Virus record (IMG/VR): IMGVR_UViG_3300032331_002544
Coordinates: 1-43,550 of that record
Source: a virus
DNA length: 43,550 nucleotides
Reading direction: 5' to 3' (one strand)
The notes beneath the pieces are model-generated. The model searched no databases. It was given only the letters and a program-made list of their open reading frames with translations, and had not been told where the DNA came from. The translations under genes and the position numbers were made by a program. Each line of letters begins with the position of its first letter. Positions within the stretch are counted from its first letter, which is position 1. Shown piece by piece: positions 6,106-41,762 of the stretch.

Positions 6106-6518
6106 GCCATCACTCGTGGGAAGACCCACTCTCGTGTGCCGAGTAGTTCGCCACCCATGTCGTACATCTCTAAGCAATCGTCTTTGAGGATGTAGAGGTA
6201 CTCTGCCCATGCGAAATCAGAATCCTTATCGGTGAACAAACCCTCATCTGATTCCATGTCTAGATGTGCAACGCCGTAACCCTCTACGAGTTTAAAGCGT
6301 CCGTCAGAGTCGTAAGGTCCGAGTTCTTTCTTGTCGGGATCTATACAAGACCACGACAGGTGATCATGGATGATGGTCTGACGAACTTTGTCAATTCCAT
6401 CTCTTACAACTAGCAAGAAGAGTTCTGACTCTTTTGCTTGCGGGTAACCGTCCCAATGACAGTAACGCCCTTGCCATCCAGTTGCTGTTGGCTCTGCAAT
6501 GATTGATCTTGTTGACAT
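6102..6518 (-). CDS. Conserved phage protein (MSTRSxIA family)
   Basis: 138 residues. The N-terminus MSTRSIIAEPTATGWQGRY followed by CHWDGYP is a widely shared signature among phages of several hosts; function is not known. The C-terminus (WAEYLYILKDDCLEMYD) is strand-rich. It overlaps both neighbours by one to four bases, in tight translational coupling. No catalytic motif can be defended. Confidence 0.75.
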   Translation of the reverse strand: MSTRSIIAEPTATGWQGRYCHWDGYPQAKESELFLLVVRDGIDKVRQTIIHDHLSWSCIDPDKKELGPYDSDGRFKLVEGYGVAHLDMESDEGLFTDKDSDFAWAEYLYILKDDCLEMYDMGGELLGTREWVFPRVMA

Positions 6519-12776: not shown

Positions 12777-13019
12777 ATGAACGACATACTAAAAGAAGCA
12801 CACGAAAAGCGAACCGAGAAATTGACAGACTTGTGGGCTTGCGCTCACGAGTATTCGTTTCACGACAGCGAAGCAGACAGCCTGCGTTTGGCTCTCTCCT
12901 CGCTCATTAGAATTATTGCTAGCCGTGAGGAGTTCGGCTACGAGTTCGTCAAAGATATGACAGCACTCGCCAACAGCACTATCGCCGAGCGTGTGGTGGA
13001 ACAGAAAAAAGCCTCGTAA
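12777..13019 (+). CDS. Hypothetical helical protein
   Basis: 80 residues, almost entirely helical (ILKEAHEKRTEKLTDLWACA, then LRLALSSLIRIIASREEFG). Not recognised. Leaderless. It ends directly before the next family promoter, so it is a single-gene unit. Confidence 0.65.
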   Translation: MNDILKEAHEKRTEKLTDLWACAHEYSFHDSEADSLRLALSSLIRIIASREEFGYEFVKDMTALANSTIAERVVEQKKAS

Positions 13020-13023
13020 GAGG

Positions 13024-13052
13024 TTGTCATTGTCGGTAATAACCGATAGAGT
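13024..13052 (+). promoter_or_regulatory. Family promoter for the 13166 operon
   Basis: TTGTCA, 17-bp spacer ending AATAACCGA, TAGAGT. Transcription is predicted to start at about 13059, at the first base of a long hairpin. Confidence 0.85.
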
Positions 13053-13059
13053 TAGATTT

Positions 13060-13134
13060 AGACAGGGAGACTGAAGAGTGTCCAATAACGCTAATCGGGA
13101 GATGGAAATGTCTCCCGACAGGCTCTCCCTGTCT
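13060..13134 (+). ncRNA. Nested-hairpin mRNA leader
   Basis: AGACAGGGAGA (13060-13070) pairs perfectly with TCTCCCTGTCT (13124-13134). Inside, CGGGAGA (13096-13102) pairs with TCTCCCG (13111-13117) around an 8-nt loop. GGGAGA/TCTCCC is shared, so the outer and inner arms can swap partners, as in an RNA switch. It ends 31 nt before the 13166 ATG. Family unknown. Confidence 0.55.
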
Positions 13135-13165
13135 ATCCAAGTACCTACTAAGAAATGGAGACCAG

Positions 13166-13396
13166 ATGACGCTTACAAGCCCCGAGGTACGGTCAGAGTA
13201 TCTCTACGCATTCAAGCAGTATGTAGCAAAGGCGTTCGCCCTTTCAAATGCGTGGGAACGCGTTCATACAGACAGCGAACTGAGCAACGCGATAGACGGG
13301 ACTATATTCCCGTTCGCAATGTCCTTTGATGAGTACTGTTACGAGATGCTGATAGTACTTCGCAAACTGGAAGAGGAACTTGGGGAAGCCGCATGA
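13166..13396 (+). CDS. Hypothetical helical protein
   Basis: 76 residues (MTLTSPEVRSEYLYAFKQY start), helical and acidic at the C-terminus. The frame is chosen over the overlapping frame beginning with GTG at 13078 because it has GGAGA upstream, ends with an ATGA overlap to the next gene and has ordinary composition. It carries an AGCCCCG. Function unknown; expression may be set by the structured leader. Confidence 0.65.
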   Translation: MTLTSPEVRSEYLYAFKQYVAKAFALSNAWERVHTDSELSNAIDGTIFPFAMSFDEYCYEMLIVLRKLEEELGEAA

Positions 13397-13596
13397 GCCC
13401 CGCCCACCAGATACTCGTGAAGGCAAACCTTCGTTGGAACACCCAGCACGTACCTTCAGCAACGGAAAACAGGTTCTACACCCCAGACGACATCGACGGG
13501 GCTTCCCTGCTCTGGATCGTTGATGGTGAGGCGACACTCCGACTTCACGACGGCAGGAAGGCTGTTGTGTTTCACGAGGACATAGAAATTCTGTAA
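13393..13596 (+). CDS. Hypothetical small protein
   Basis: 67 residues, starting in the ATGA overlap with the previous gene. Beta-rich end (LLWIVDGEATLRLHDGRKA, then VVFHEDIEIL). Two AGCCCCG sites lie within it. Not recognised. Confidence 0.6.
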   Translation: MSPAHQILVKANLRWNTQHVPSATENRFYTPDDIDGASLLWIVDGEATLRLHDGRKAVVFHEDIEIL

Positions 13597-13631: not shown

Positions 13632-13659
13632 GAAGTCACCTACAAACGGAAGGAAAATT

Positions 13660-14100
13660 ATGTCCATAATGGCACTCGCTAGCAAGGTTGATGAACTCAT
13701 CACTTTGCCAGCCGACCAAAAGACAGCGAAACTCATCGCAGTATTTGGCACTAACGAGTTGGAGATTACCTCTGACGACCTAGCCCAAGTTGCTGAACAC
13801 GGTGATGTTTACGACCTGTTGGAGAGCGAAATTGCTCGCTCAACGGCGCAGTTCGCTGACGCTATCACACTCGTGACTTGTGGTTGGGCTTCCCCAATTG
13901 ACAACTCGCAAGACGAGGACAACCAAGTTGCGCCTTCGCAACACCCTGAACGCCGTAGGGTTCGTTTGGTGGTTACAGCCACCCGTGAACACACGGCAAG
14001 CGTTCTGCGTTTCTCTGACGACTGGGATAACCCCATTACCGATGAGGGACACGCACGAGGCTCACTCGCTGACGCTGTACGAGAGTTGTTTCAGGACTAA
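13660..14100 (+). CDS. Hypothetical protein
   Basis: 146 residues from the ATG after GGAAGGA; the longer reading from 13603 would start inside the promoter. Helical N-terminus (SKVDELITLPADQKTAKLIA), then a QHPERRRVRLVVTATREHTA block and an acidic C-terminus. Family unknown. Followed by a strong hairpin. Confidence 0.7.
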   Translation: MSIMALASKVDELITLPADQKTAKLIAVFGTNELEITSDDLAQVAEHGDVYDLLESEIARSTAQFADAITLVTCGWASPIDNSQDEDNQVAPSQHPERRRVRLVVTATREHTASVLRFSDDWDNPITDEGHARGSLADAVRELFQD

Positions 14101-14116
14101 TCACACCTGAACTCCA

Positions 14117-14155
14117 GCCACCTGCCGTTCGCCCCCCGTTCGGCAGGTGGCTTTC
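14117..14155 (+). terminator. Terminator after the 13660 gene
   Basis: GCCACCTGCCG pairs perfectly with CGGCAGGTGGC (14141-14151), followed by TTTCTC. Confidence 0.75.
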
Positions 14156-26281: not shown

Positions 26282-28103
26282 TCACATACCCATCCACGTC
26301 GATAATGTCTTGGGTCGCCTCGATGGCGTGCGTCCAAACGGATCGGGATGGCAAGCTCGATGCCCGTGCCGCAATGACGATCAGAACCCGTCGCTCTCTG
26401 TGGGTATTGGACAAGAGGGTCAAGTGTTGTTCTTCTGTCAACGAGCAGGTGGATGTGACGCACAAGAGGTTTGTTCAACTCTTAGTTTGCGCATGAAAGA
26501 CTTGTGGCCAGATTCCGGAGCTGATACATATGTCCCGCCTTCCAAGCCAAAGACCAATAGGGTAGACATAGATATGCCGGAGCAATCTAAAGAGCCTGAC
26601 AAGTGGAAAGAAGTAGAGACCTACGACTACACGGACAGGGATGGGACTCTGCTATTTCAGAAAGTCCGTTTGGTTAATCAACACGGCAAGAAGTCGTTCC
26701 GTCAGAGGAAGCCCGATGGCAATGGTGGATGGGACTATAAAGTTTGGACATACGAGGATGGCGAAAAGTCTGGCCCTGTGCAGGTTCTTTACAACTTCCC
26801 CGCAGTAGTCAAGGCAGTCAACAGCAACATACCCGTATGGGTAGTTGAGGGCGAGAAAGATGCAAACACTCTCAATCGGCTTGGTTACGTTGCTACAACA
26901 ATGACTGGTGGCGCTGGAAACGGCAAGTGGCTTGAGATACATACGCTCGCACTCATGGGCGCAACGGTCGAAGTGATTGCAGACAATGATGAACCTGGCC
27001 GTATACACGCAGAGAACATAAAGAATGATCTTGAACAAGCTGGATGCGACGTACAGGTATGGATATCTGAGACGCAAAAGGACATTACTGATCACCTGAA
27101 CGCTGGCAACACAATGGATGATTTGATACCCATTGAGGAGTACGGGAACGGAATGGTTCCAGTTGCAGAAATAGCGGAAGAAACAATTGAAGAGCTTTCA
27201 CCTTCCACCCGTGCGATAACTGACTTACGTGCACTGCTTGAAGATGAGTCACTGTCAGATGCACAGAAGATTGCAAAGTCAAATAGATTGCTGTCAAACG
27301 CATTCACTGAGATACCCCGTGACGCTGGTCGATTGGTCGTATGGGAAGAGTTTCTCAAAGAAGCAGAGTCAGACACTTACGACTGGGCTATCCCAGGACT
27401 ACTTGAACGTGGCGAGCGTGTAATCGTTGTTGCTGCTGAAGGTGTTGGTAAGACCATGCTTGCACGACAGGTGGCAATCCTTGCATCTTCCGGAATGCAC
27501 CCGTTGACCTTCCAGAGGATTGAGCCAGTAAAGACCTTGACGATCGACTTGGAAAACCCTGAGCGAATCATTAGGCGTGCATCACGCAAGATTATGAGTG
27601 AAGCGATGAAGGCTGGGTATGTACGCAACCCGCAAGCGCACTTGCTTATCAAACCATCTGGTCTAAACCTGCTTACTCAAGAAGATCGTGCGATCTTTGA
27701 GCGTGCTATTGAAGAAGTGAAACCACAGTTGCTTTGTATTGGACCGTTGTACAAGTCATTCGTTGATCCTGGTGGTCGTACATCTGAGGCGATCGCTGTA
27801 GAGGTTGCTAAGTACTTGGACTCAATACGGACTATCTATAACTGCGCTATGTGGATTGAGCACCATGCCCCACTTGGTACATCAATAACCTCTCGTGATC
27901 TTCGTCCGTTCGGATCAGCAGTATGGTCACGCTGGCCAGAGTTCGGTATCTCTTTACAGCCAGATCCAACAGCCGGTGGTGCCTATGTGTACGACGTACG
28001 ACACTTCCGTGGTGCTCGTGATGAACGCCCATGGCCTACCAAGATGCGACGTGGGCTTAGATTTCCGTTTGAGGTGTTAGAGTTTATGAAGGTAACAACA
28101 TGA
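26274..28103 (+). CDS. Primase-helicase (zinc finger, TOPRIM, RecA-like ATPase)
   Basis: 609 residues. Zinc finger Cys at 30, 32, 55 and 61; TOPRIM domain with VWVVEGEKDA (about 188) and VIADNDEPG; RecA-like ATPase with VAAEGVGKTMLA (Walker A, about 385) and a hydrophobic strand plus Pro-containing Walker B region (LLCIGPLY). Layout resembles T7 gp4-like fusions with a RepA/AAA_25 helicase. It should make primers and unwind DNA at the fork. Overlaps WhiB before and the HTH gene after. Confidence 0.9.
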   Translation: MTNHIPIHVDNVLGRLDGVRPNGSGWQARCPCRNDDQNPSLSVGIGQEGQVLFFCQRAGGCDAQEVCSTLSLRMKDLWPDSGADTYVPPSKPKTNRVDIDMPEQSKEPDKWKEVETYDYTDRDGTLLFQKVRLVNQHGKKSFRQRKPDGNGGWDYKVWTYEDGEKSGPVQVLYNFPAVVKAVNSNIPVWVVEGEKDANTLNRLGYVATTMTGGAGNGKWLEIHTLALMGATVEVIADNDEPGRIHAENIKNDLEQAGCDVQVWISETQKDITDHLNAGNTMDDLIPIEEYGNGMVPVAEIAEETIEELSPSTRAITDLRALLEDESLSDAQKIAKSNRLLSNAFTEIPRDAGRLVVWEEFLKEAESDTYDWAIPGLLERGERVIVVAAEGVGKTMLARQVAILASSGMHPLTFQRIEPVKTLTIDLENPERIIRRASRKIMSEAMKAGYVRNPQAHLLIKPSGLNLLTQEDRAIFERAIEEVKPQLLCIGPLYKSFVDPGGRTSEAIAVEVAKYLDSIRTIYNCAMWIEHHAPLGTSITSRDLRPFGSAVWSRWPEFGISLQPDPTAGGAYVYDVRHFRGARDERPWPTKMRRGLRFPFEVLEFMKVTT

Positions 28104-28738
28104 GCGATGCTGGCGGAAAAGCCCTAACACGAGAATTCCTCTCCGAAAGGGATATGCGCATATTCAAGATGCGTCAATCAGGCGTATCAGTGTCTGAGAT
28201 TGCCAGAAGATTCAGTCTCTCCACCAGTGTGGTCAATAAGGCCGTACAGCGCACGCTAGAGAAGATGAACCGCGAAGCCCTGCTTGCGTACCCAGAGGTC
28301 CTTAGAATGGAACTGGAGCGCTTAGACGCCCTTCAGTCGGCTATCTGGCCCATGACTCAACATAGAAGAGAAGTCATGGATGATGGAACGGAAGTCCTAC
28401 ATGAACCAGACCTCAAAGCCATACAGCAAGTTCTTTTAATTAGTGACAGACGATCCAAGCTTTTGGGCATGGAACAGCAAAGCGTGAACGTAAAAGTAAA
28501 CGTGGAAGGCGAAGTAGGAGTCAAAGCCACCCTTGCTGGTGCGCCTGGTCTTACACCTGTCTCTGCATTTAGCCCTGAAACGGAAGCCCGCAAACTCCTA
28601 GAGTTGATGGGTATTGCTGGCGTATTACCAGCAGCAACGGTAAAACAACTACTAGGTACTGAAGACATACTGGATGCTGAAGTAGTATCTGACAACATCA
28701 TTGCAATCGAACAGGAGGCAGAAGAAAATGGAATCTGA
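28100..28738 (+). CDS. Helix-turn-helix protein, possible terminase small subunit
   Basis: 212 residues. An N-terminal HTH (MRQSGVSVSEIARRFSLSTS followed by VVNKAVQRTLE), a helical middle (LRMELERLDALQSAIWP ... LISDRRSKLLGM) and a hydrophobic C-terminal region. The pattern HTH plus a central SDRRSKLLG helix is typical of small-terminase-like or phage DNA-binding proteins. No terminase large subunit is in the window to confirm. ATGA overlap with the primase gene. Confidence 0.7.
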   Translation: MSDAGGKALTREFLSERDMRIFKMRQSGVSVSEIARRFSLSTSVVNKAVQRTLEKMNREALLAYPEVLRMELERLDALQSAIWPMTQHRREVMDDGTEVLHEPDLKAIQQVLLISDRRSKLLGMEQQSVNVKVNVEGEVGVKATLAGAPGLTPVSAFSPETEARKLLELMGIAGVLPAATVKQLLGTEDILDAEVVSDNIIAIEQEAEENGI

Positions 28739-36797: not shown

Positions 36798-38723
36798 ATG
36801 ACAATTTTAGATCAAGCATTTGTGGACTCCTATTCCCTAAAGCAGGCCCCATGGGGTTTTAACGGCCTCGGAGAAATAGTTTTTCTTCGCACCTACAGTC
36901 GCAAGAAGGAAAACGGAAACGCCGAGACATGGGTGGAGACCCTTCAGCGCGTAATTAATGGTGCCCACGAAGTTGGTGTTGATTACACAAAAGAAGAAGC
37001 TGAGGCATTGTTCGATCACTGCTTTAATTTGCGTTGCTCGTTTTCTGGTCGCTCACTATGGCAACTTGGAACTCCACTTGTTCAGAAATTTAACGCTACA
37101 TCACTGAACAATTGTTACTTCACGAACATTGAGAAGATTGAGGATTTTGAGTTGCTTTTTGAGTACTTGATGCTTGGTGGCGGCGTTGGCTTTTCTGTAG
37201 AACGCTCCAAGATTCATGAACTTCCAAAAGTGAAAGTTGGCGTAACGATTACACACGAACGCAGCAACGACGCAGACATCATTGTTCCTGATTCGCGTCA
37301 AGGATGGAAGCGTTTGCTTCACGCAGTACTGAAGTCGTACTTTGACACTGGTAAGTCTTTCTCTTATTCAACAATTTTGATCCGCGAATATGGCGCACCA
37401 CTGAAGACTTTTGGTGGTACCGCATCTGGTCCGGGAGCACTTATTGAAGGCATTGCAGATATTGCGAAAGTGATGCAGAATCGTGAAGGCAAGAAACTTC
37501 GTTCCATTGACGTCCTAGATATTTGTAACATCATTGGTCGAGTTGTCGTTTCTGGTTCTTCTCGTCGCTCGGCGCAGATCGCAATGGGTGATCCTGATGA
37601 TGTTCTGTTCCTTCGTGCAAAGAATTGGGCGTCTGGCAATGTCCCAGCATGGCGTGCTAATTCAAACAACTCCATATATGCCGATTACTACGACGAGATC
37701 ATGCCGGAGCTGTGGAAGGGCTATGACGGAACAGGTGAGCCATACGGACTTCTCAATCGTCGCCTCGCCCGGAAGTTTGGCAGAATCGGTGAAGCAAAAC
37801 CAGATAACTCCATTGAGGGTTTTAACCCATGCGCAGAAATTGCGCTTGCCGATGGAGAGTCTTGCAACCTTGCAACCATATTCTTGCCTAATGTCGAATC
37901 TCTTGATCAGTTCAAGGAAATTTCACGCTTGCTCTATAAGACGCAAAAGCAGATCACTCGCATGGCTTATCCTTACGAGAAGACTACGAACATCGTTAAT
38001 AAGAATGCCCGACTTGGTCAGTCTGTTACCGGAATTCTTCAATGTTCGGAGGAGCAGGTTTCGTGGTTGTCACCCGCTTATGAGTATTTGCAGGAGTTTG
38101 ATAAGAACTATTCTGCAGAGCGTGGATGGCCGGCGTCAGTTCGCCTCACAACCGTTCAGCCGTCTGGAACTCTTTCGTTGCTTCCTGGTGTAACTCCAGG
38201 TATCCACCCTGCTTACGCTCCCTACTATGTGCGACGAGTCAGATTTGGCTCTTCGGATCCACTTGTTGATGCGTGCCGTAAGCGTGGCTACAAAATTCAG
38301 TGGGACATTGGAATCGATGGTAGAGAGGATCACACTCGTTATGTTGTCGACTTCCCCTGCATGTCGCCAGAGGGCTCTGTGCTTGCTGTAGACATGACTG
38401 CTGTTCAGCAACTTGAGCTAGTTGGATCTATGCAGAAGCTTTGGGCTGACAACGCTGTATCGGTTACTGTCTATTACCGAAAAGAAGAACTTCCAGCAAT
38501 CCAGGATTGGTTGGCGGAGAACTACGATAAGAGCGTTAAGTCAGTCTCATTCTTGCTCCACGTAGATCACAACTTCGTGTTACCTCCATACGAGGAGATC
38601 ACAAAAGCAGAGTACGAAAAGATGCTTGGCAAGATTGATAGTTCGATACCTTTGCAGGAAGTAGTTTTTGGTGGAGAATTAGATCTTGATAATTGTGCTA
38701 CTGGCGCATGTCCAATCAAATGA
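36798..38723 (+). CDS. nrdJ: Class II (B12-dependent) ribonucleoside-triphosphate reductase
   Basis: 641 residues, close to monomeric Lactobacillus-type RTPR. SLNNCYFTN (first Cys of the active-site pair), GGGVGFSVE, the catalytic loop NPCAEIALADGESCNLAT with N343, C345 and E347, QPSGTLSLLPGVTPGIHP, and the C-terminal shuttle Cys in DNCATGACPIK (633, 638). It converts NTPs to dNTPs with adenosylcobalamin, without oxygen or a small subunit, and would supply precursors for phage DNA synthesis. GGGAAA precedes the ATG. Confidence 0.95.
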   Translation: MTILDQAFVDSYSLKQAPWGFNGLGEIVFLRTYSRKKENGNAETWVETLQRVINGAHEVGVDYTKEEAEALFDHCFNLRCSFSGRSLWQLGTPLVQKFNATSLNNCYFTNIEKIEDFELLFEYLMLGGGVGFSVERSKIHELPKVKVGVTITHERSNDADIIVPDSRQGWKRLLHAVLKSYFDTGKSFSYSTILIREYGAPLKTFGGTASGPGALIEGIADIAKVMQNREGKKLRSIDVLDICNIIGRVVVSGSSRRSAQIAMGDPDDVLFLRAKNWASGNVPAWRANSNNSIYADYYDEIMPELWKGYDGTGEPYGLLNRRLARKFGRIGEAKPDNSIEGFNPCAEIALADGESCNLATIFLPNVESLDQFKEISRLLYKTQKQITRMAYPYEKTTNIVNKNARLGQSVTGILQCSEEQVSWLSPAYEYLQEFDKNYSAERGWPASVRLTTVQPSGTLSLLPGVTPGIHPAYAPYYVRRVRFGSSDPLVDACRKRGYKIQWDIGIDGREDHTRYVVDFPCMSPEGSVLAVDMTAVQQLELVGSMQKLWADNAVSVTVYYRKEELPAIQDWLAENYDKSVKSVSFLLHVDHNFVLPPYEEITKAEYEKMLGKIDSSIPLQEVVFGGELDLDNCATGACPIK

Positions 38724-40997: not shown

Positions 40998-41762
40998 ATG
41001 TCCGTACAAATCATAGACAATGTTGAAATTGGCGTAATCCCACCAACACCATTTTTGCTAGACGACAATGTAAATGTGGATATTGCAGAATCATCGTTGC
41101 TTGAAATAGCAAAAGATTATGGATTTCCCATTTCGTATTTACAAGAACAAAACGGGAATGCCGTTCAGCATGTTTTTCCTATCAAGAAAACCGAAAAAGA
41201 GCAGATGTCAACCTCTTCAAGGGTTGAACTTGAACTGCATACCGAAACAGCTTTTCACATGTACAAGCCAGACTACGTAATGTTGTTGTGTCTCCGTGGG
41301 GATGAAAACGCAGCCACTACATACGTGTGCATGGAAGATCTTCTTGGTTCTGCAGAGCCAGAAATGCTTTATGAGTTAACTAAAGAAGACTTTGTAACGT
41401 CAATCGATAAGAGTTTTAGAATGAACGGCGAAGAAGACAAGCTAATTAAAACTGCAGTCATTCAGCGCCGAGAGGATGGTTATATAAGGCTGAACTATGA
41501 TAGTTCGGTTATGTATGGAGTGACCACGGATGCTCAACTTGCGTTGGATGAGTTTAAAAAGCTAATTGCAAAGAATATCAAGGAATTTACATTGAAGTCC
41601 GGACAGTTGGCTGTTATTGACAACTCTTCAACAATACATGGGCGTAAGAATTTTGATGCTCGTTACGACGGAACAGATAGATGGCTATTGCGCTGTTTGG
41701 TAAGAAGTGAACTTCCGCCAGACAATCACCGGAGTGGATCTGTTATAACAACTACTTTTTAA
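40998..41762 (+). CDS. 2-oxoglutarate/Fe(II) oxygenase, clavaminate-synthase-like
   Basis: 254 residues. ELELHTETAFHMYKPDYVML has the HxE iron motif (H81, E83), and IHGRKNF (H214) with the later RWLLR supplies the second His and the 2-oxoglutarate-binding Arg. The layout matches clavaminate synthase/VioC-type hydroxylases, which act on free amino acids such as Arg or Asn. TAGTAT lies seven bases before the ATG (leaderless). Substrate in a phage context is unknown. Confidence 0.85.
   Translation: MSVQIIDNVEIGVIPPTPFLLDDNVNVDIAESSLLEIAKDYGFPISYLQEQNGNAVQHVFPIKKTEKEQMSTSSRVELELHTETAFHMYKPDYVMLLCLRGDENAATTYVCMEDLLGSAEPEMLYELTKEDFVTSIDKSFRMNGEEDKLIKTAVIQRREDGYIRLNYDSSVMYGVTTDAQLALDEFKKLIAKNIKEFTLKSGQLAVIDNSSTIHGRKNFDARYDGTDRWLLRCLVRSELPPDNHRSGSVITTTF

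Follow-up and report, generated by a model that had tools for sequence, protein, structure and literature searches.

Does the strongly folded segment at positions 13060-13134 of this phage DNA represent a functional RNA and, if so, what might it do? The original prediction saw in it a nested-hairpin leader, either an RNA switch or a protein-binding site, for the operon that starts at 13166. We examined the segment in the window, that is, the whole of a 43,550-base virus contig (IMG/VR record IMGVR_UViG_3300032331_002544), and in related phages; the features concerned are collected in Table 1.

The window contains a WhiB gene, and its SNF2-type helicase has its best-covering relatives in Arthrobacter phages. 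The gene at 13657-14100 is shared with hosts and serves as a host marker; relatives of its product occur at 39 MAG loci, mostly under the labels Acidimicrobiia, Ilumatobacteraceae or Actinomycetota. From this we infer that the host is a freshwater actinobacterium, probably a member of the Acidimicrobiia. A TauD-like dioxygenase (40998-41762) and a ribonucleotide reductase (36798-38723) are auxiliary metabolic genes of the phage. The C-terminus of the 13657-14100 protein (APSQHPERRRVRLVV.ATREHTASVLRFSDDWDNPITDEGHARGSLADAVR) is very conserved and common to cellular actinobacterial genomes.

Table 1. Features of the window around the structured RNA.
Feature	Coordinates	Strand	Basis or remark
80-aa upstream gene	12777..13019	+	homolog in L008
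Phage-family promoter	13024..13052	+	-35 TTGTCA 13024-13029, 17-nt spacer with AATAACCGA, -10 TAGAGT 13047-13052
Three-way-junction RNA, 75 nt	13060..13134	+	begins at predicted +1; fold, alignment, covariance-model matches
P1 5′ arm, AGACAGGGAGA + CTG	13060..13073	+	fold; two-sided changes in 7/14 pairs
P2 hairpin, AGTGT-CCAATA-ACGCT	13077..13092	+	5/5 pairs invariant in alignment; energy only
P3 hairpin, TCGGGAGATG-GAAA-TGTCTCCCGA	13095..13118	+	two-sided changes in 3/10 pairs
P1 3′ arm: CAG, bulge GC (13122-13123), TCTCCCTGTCT	13119..13134	+	fold, alignment
Short leader ACCTACTAAG...GGAG between RNA and gene	13143..13165	+	ordinary leader of the phage family
76-aa protein, first gene behind the RNA	13166..13396	+	ORF 75% identical in L005
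67-aa protein, second operon gene	13393..13596	+	

The promoter family and the predicted transcription start

The pattern of the promoter that precedes the segment has 21 matches in the window, against 0.16 expected, and was not found in 296 Acidimicrobiia genomes when up to one mismatch was allowed. At most of these promoters the start codon lies at the expected transcription start, so that the genes look leaderless. Because the ATG of the sister promoters falls at the equivalent of 13059/13060, the transcription start (+1) of the promoter studied here is predicted at 13059 or 13060, in agreement with the earlier claim that the outer 5′ arm begins with the first transcribed base. Among 165 family promoters from the window and its relatives, the 80-nt segments downstream have a mean folding energy of -14.6 (sd 4.4), with -38.5 for the promoter studied here and -23.3 for the next most stable; only this promoter, together with its counterpart in the close relative, leads into a strong structure, as had been noted.

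Promoters of this family (GGTTGTnnTTnnnnnnTATAACCGATA with a -10 of the form TAnnnT) occur in about 20 copies on both strands between 7199 and 18812 of the window, as well as in contigs L003-L009 and in L111, where the family reads AATAACGGATACAGT; the genes behind them are mostly small and apparently leaderless. Their spacer holds an imperfect palindrome, a possible operator, and a protein encoded at 28100-28738, with a weak match to sigma-70 region 4 or a LuxR-type helix-turn-helix, is a candidate factor for the family. Comparable to this promoter family, and not to the RNA, are the ESAS/SAS elements of the Cluster K mycobacteriophage Adephagia, in which a phage-specific promoter sequence with an imperfect inverted repeat is repeated before many small genes and a leaderless start is predicted (PMC11373665).

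Those family genes that do have a leader share ACCTAC(TA) at +1, followed by a Shine-Dalgarno (SD)-like sequence (10202, 11437, 13638 and 15411; also 13143), and in the sister genes (promoters 10164, 11400, 13601 and 15373) the ACCTAC leader comes directly after the promoter. Since other family promoters run straight into a leader of the ACCTACTAAG...GGAG type, the RNA looks inserted at +1.

Fold and stability of the segment

The segment has a minimum free energy of -37.8 kcal/mol (z -6.42; none of 200 shuffles was as stable) and is among the top three most stable loci when 17,390 75-nt windows on both strands are compared. The window has just two perfect inverted repeats with stems of 11 bp or more and loops of up to 80 (shuffle mean 0.65), one of them being the outer stem, in which AGACAGGGAGA (13060-13070) is perfectly complementary to TCTCCCTGTCT (13124-13134) and which can grow to 12 bp via 13059/13135. 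The inner stem CGGGAGA/TCTCCCG is likewise present, so that both stems hold the GGGAGA/TCTCCC words as noted before, and it reaches 10 bp when folded (13095-13104/13109-13118). Both of the hairpins described originally as nested are thus real; nevertheless, the outer stem is prolonged by a CTG/CAG step and another stem forms at 13077-13081/13088-13092, so that the overall fold is a three-way junction. Its stems P1, P2 and P3 measure 11+3, 5 and 10 bp, respectively, and P3 ends in a GAAA loop. An SD-like GGGAG is found six bases upstream of an ATG inside P3.

The words shared by the two stems had been taken as the basis of a re-pairing switch, an idea that finds no support here: the alternative pairings cost 12.4 and 21.5 kcal/mol, both pairings at once would make a pseudoknot, and the complementarity extends over only 4-5 nt in L106, L107, L111 and L114, four of the six members compared. 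Masking of the SD sequence by alternative pairing is also disfavored on folding energies. The RNA is not itself an intrinsic terminator, as neither strand has a T run (the RNA is followed by ATCCAAGT and, on the reverse strand, by AAATC), and a leader reading frame is not conserved, ending after 18 codons in the close relative and continuing in the window. A search with the outer-stem pattern gave 18 matches, 17 of which we dismiss as chance word pairs unrelated to the promoter family.

The RNA belongs to a family found in other phages

A search of the window against Rfam 15 at the gathering threshold retrieved three tRNAs only, with no match to the RNA, and the matches up to E 10 for four members of the family described below were limited to chance miRNA, snoRNA and lncRNA models and to shared sRNA terminators; the low-score matches to MIR408, ErsA, RybB and others were discarded on these grounds. 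Blast comparisons of the RNA with INPHARED and PLSDB gave no match. Likewise, 397 Actinomycetota genomes gave no match at E 0.01, and 395 Acidimicrobiia genomes gave nothing convincing, only a single partial match with an E value of 0.097; a host origin is rejected on this sample of about 790 actinobacterial genomes. The family is apparently previously undescribed. The manA and wcaG motifs of cyanophages are, like the window RNA, covarying structured RNAs, known from aquatic phage and metagenome DNA (PMC2864571), but they are separate families with curated models to which the window gives no match.

Relatives of the window sought through the 13166 protein, its alignment and the 13393 and 13657 genes amounted to only two in IMG/VR, one with the RNA and the other without it. 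In the close relative L005 (IMGVR_UViG_3300032270_001615) the RNA is identical at 74 of 75 positions, with the single change in the P2 loop, and the 13166 and 12777 proteins are 75% and 78% identical, respectively. Conservation between these two phages was rejected as proof of function, because 784 of 17,775 75-nt windows (4.4%) also reach 74/75; the conserved patch, 12972-13150, extends into the upstream gene. In the more distant relative L008 the 12777 homolog is joined directly to a different small gene, and there is no promoter, RNA or 13166 gene between the flanking genes.

An IMG/VR scan with the junction sequence alone as query, which left both long stems free, returned 18 contigs, including the already known close relative. 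With a covariance model built from the first two sequences only, nine further phage contigs scored 74.4-90.8 bits and the remaining eight, taken to be chance matches, no more than 18.3 bits. In these nine contigs P1 and P3 are rewritten yet paired, for example as GTTGGTGGGA/TCCCACCAAC and CAGGGAATG/TGTTCCCTG. Across seven distinct sequences 97% of cells are paired and two-sided, compensatory changes occur at 10 pairs, all of them in P1 and P3, with a covariation score of 0.343 versus 0.147 for shuffled alignments (reached in 0 of 500) and 0.03-0.09 when the partner was slid. The junction strands and P2 are invariant, as are CAGGC of the P1 3′ arm and the core CUGAAGAGUGUC..AUAACGCUAAU..GACAGGC, and the P3 loop is either GAAA or ACCAA; as P2 does not vary, its support comes from energy.

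The nine contigs make up three lineages besides that of the window, which share several genes and are thus broadly related phages; because all members come from related phages, the member counts are not independent and are inflated by common descent. Each of the 11 records of uncultured phages that have the RNA contains exactly one copy of it, and in every lineage the pairing of P1 begins 7-8 nt past a -10-like hexamer, behind promoters that differ in sequence between lineages. The covariation search proposed originally revealed stems that are kept in the close relative and changed in a compensatory manner across four lineages; the loss of stem bases that would have refuted the prediction was not seen. 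The idea that the transcript begins with a functional RNA structure is thereby supported. A GGGAGA/TCTCCC switch is not. On the evidence of these alignments, 13060-13134 is a member of a phage-restricted family of structured RNAs.

The genes behind the RNA differ among lineages

The first gene behind the RNA is the 13166 gene in the window, one for an SPTGDSSD-type protein in L102, one for an MGNQLA-type protein in L106 and L107, and another small gene in L114, and the position of the RNA in the gene order varies between related phages. In L111 a perfect 14-bp intrinsic terminator hairpin with T6 (6282-6330) lies within a few bases of P1, and promoter, RNA and terminator together make up a unit that stands alone and is folded throughout (z -6.45). 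The proposed tie of the RNA to the 13166 operon is therefore not supported. In none of the other three lineages was a terminator found directly behind the RNA; there, a gene with an SD-like sequence begins within about 30-45 nt of it. After the terminator of L111 comes a helicase gene without a family promoter of its own, although most other genes there have one, and the RNA and terminator stand between the helicase and the only family promoter found there; any argument drawn from this arrangement is weak, because the helicase of the window also lacks a family promoter.

The product of the 13166 gene is predicted to be mostly helical, with modest confidence (pLDDT 70.5), and had no significant family match, nor a fold match in a search with the model. 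At the end of the 13657 gene there is a perfect 12-bp hairpin, GCCACCTGCCG..CGGCAGGTGGC, followed by TTTC (14116-14152), likely the terminator of the operon that begins with the RNA. A repeat, CTTTCCGCCACCGT, occurs in four intergenic copies with diverging tails (12573, 14175, 16515 and 18640).

Possible functions of the RNA

Our analysis leads us to favor, tentatively, a cis-acting module at the 5′ end of the phage transcript, whose core would be recognized by the transcription complex or by a protein that binds RNA. The likeliest partner would be RNA polymerase in the act of transcription or an RNA-binding protein travelling with it; either transcription further downstream (pausing or the read-through of terminators) or what becomes of the message would be altered, irrespective of the gene behind the RNA. 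Because the invariant core sits within variable stems, recognition by a partner, and not mere stability, is suggested. A module of the transcription complex fits the place at +1, the varied following genes and the L111 terminator; against it, the single copy in each genome would fit an RNA acting in trans as well.

A precedent for such a module is the put RNA of phage HK022, which suppresses termination by binding the zinc-binding domain of the polymerase β′ subunit. It is about 70 nt long, with putL just downstream of an early promoter, acts in cis without a dedicated protein and is indifferent to the following gene (PMC9378689). The window RNA is likewise a phage RNA of similar size just downstream of a phage promoter, but it is not itself a put RNA: put consists of two adjacent stem-loops instead of a three-way junction, and it occurs in two copies in a lambdoid phage of E. 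coli, in contrast to one copy in what are probably actinobacterial phages.

A trans-acting small RNA or decoy is possible, if more doubtful than such a module; the 75-nt unit, about 120 nt with the terminator of L111, would itself be the product that functions, binding a protein or RNA of host or phage via its core, and the copies in message leaders would merely be co-transcribed or processed off. The single copy per genome, never bound to one gene, and the self-contained promoter-RNA-terminator unit of L111 agree with this, whereas the other three lineages lack the terminator and have a gene with an SD-like sequence starting within about 30-45 nt. On balance, we give a guarded preference to a cis module of the transcription complex over a free small RNA, to which we allow a lesser chance. 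Bolder, and distinctly doubtful, is the proposal that the family is a new class of regulatory phage RNA which, starting with the first transcribed base, would act unaided on the polymerase of the host. It would then be a non-lambdoid example of an antiterminator that needs no protein, and perhaps the descendant of a hammerhead ribozyme that had lost its general base but kept the fold.

That the RNA is a riboswitch-like leader, sensing a ligand or protein and controlling only the gene behind it, is unlikely. Most copies do head a message, and an invariant junction core within variable stems is aptamer-like. Yet the genes behind the RNA are not of one kind, and because the following gene varies, a metabolite switch for one pathway is disfavored; furthermore, the fold that pairs the SD sequence has an energy of -34.7 versus -40.2, no alternative within 5 kcal/mol reaches the start site, and in L111 the terminator abuts the RNA, leaving no space for a competing arm.

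We consider it improbable that the RNA is a plain 5′ stabilizer, whose blunt paired end would shield the message from decay. Stabilization by 5′-terminal stem-loops has a precedent in E. coli, according to the accounts of Emory et al. (1992) in PMC7509114 and PMC3997798, and the window does have a stable stem near the (predicted) 5′ end and clear of the SD sequence, with P1 at the predicted +1 and the SD sequence (13157) 22 nt past the stem. Nevertheless, pairing would suffice for this role and the invariant 25-nt core would not be needed, and messages of the actinobacterium M. smegmatis were not stabilized by 5′ hairpins (PMC11728522).

Less probable still is a degenerate or slow self-cleaving hammerhead-related ribozyme retained as a leader. 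The RNA and a hammerhead of type I topology share a three-way junction, CUGANGA and junction strands of seven and three bases: the open-junction form, which is only 3.5 kcal/mol less stable in all members, has the hammerhead topology, CUGAAGA is invariant in all members, corresponding to C3 U4 G5 A6 N7 G8 A9, and A13, A14, H17 (C) and G10.1-C11.1 also match. However, in place of G12 A13 A14 all members have UAA (U for G12), A15.1-U16.1 is reversed to U-A, 1.1-2.1 is A-A, four extra bases, AGGC, interrupt stem I, and none of the Rfam hammerhead models matches any of four members even at E 10. The reversed pair agrees with a natural U15.1-A16.1 hammerhead variant that cleaves slowly, and in haloviruses HF1 and HF2 a variant hammerhead, HHphage, is located at the start of an early transcript, ahead of a helicase (PMC3088659); the window RNA likewise stands at the predicted start of a viral transcript. 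Because the RNA departs from the criteria of PMC3088659 at the base of stem I, at G12 and at A15.1-U16.1, we do not class it as a hammerhead. Finally, it is extremely improbable that the inverted repeat is a product of chance or a selfish element and does nothing as RNA. The unexceptional identity with the close relative alone would conform to this, but the covariation in four lineages and the single copy at a fixed distance from the promoter contradict it.

Significance for probable phages of freshwater actinobacteria

To our knowledge, almost nothing is known about phage gene control in freshwater actinobacteria. Our results add a compact RNA family, backed by covariation, to phages that probably infect these very common freshwater bacteria. 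Its place at +1, its indifference to the gene that follows and its hammerhead-like invariant junction make its function testable through assays of read-through, of protein or polymerase binding and of cleavage. It would be a real surprise if such phages turned out to have an antiterminator that works without protein, or a domesticated ribozyme.
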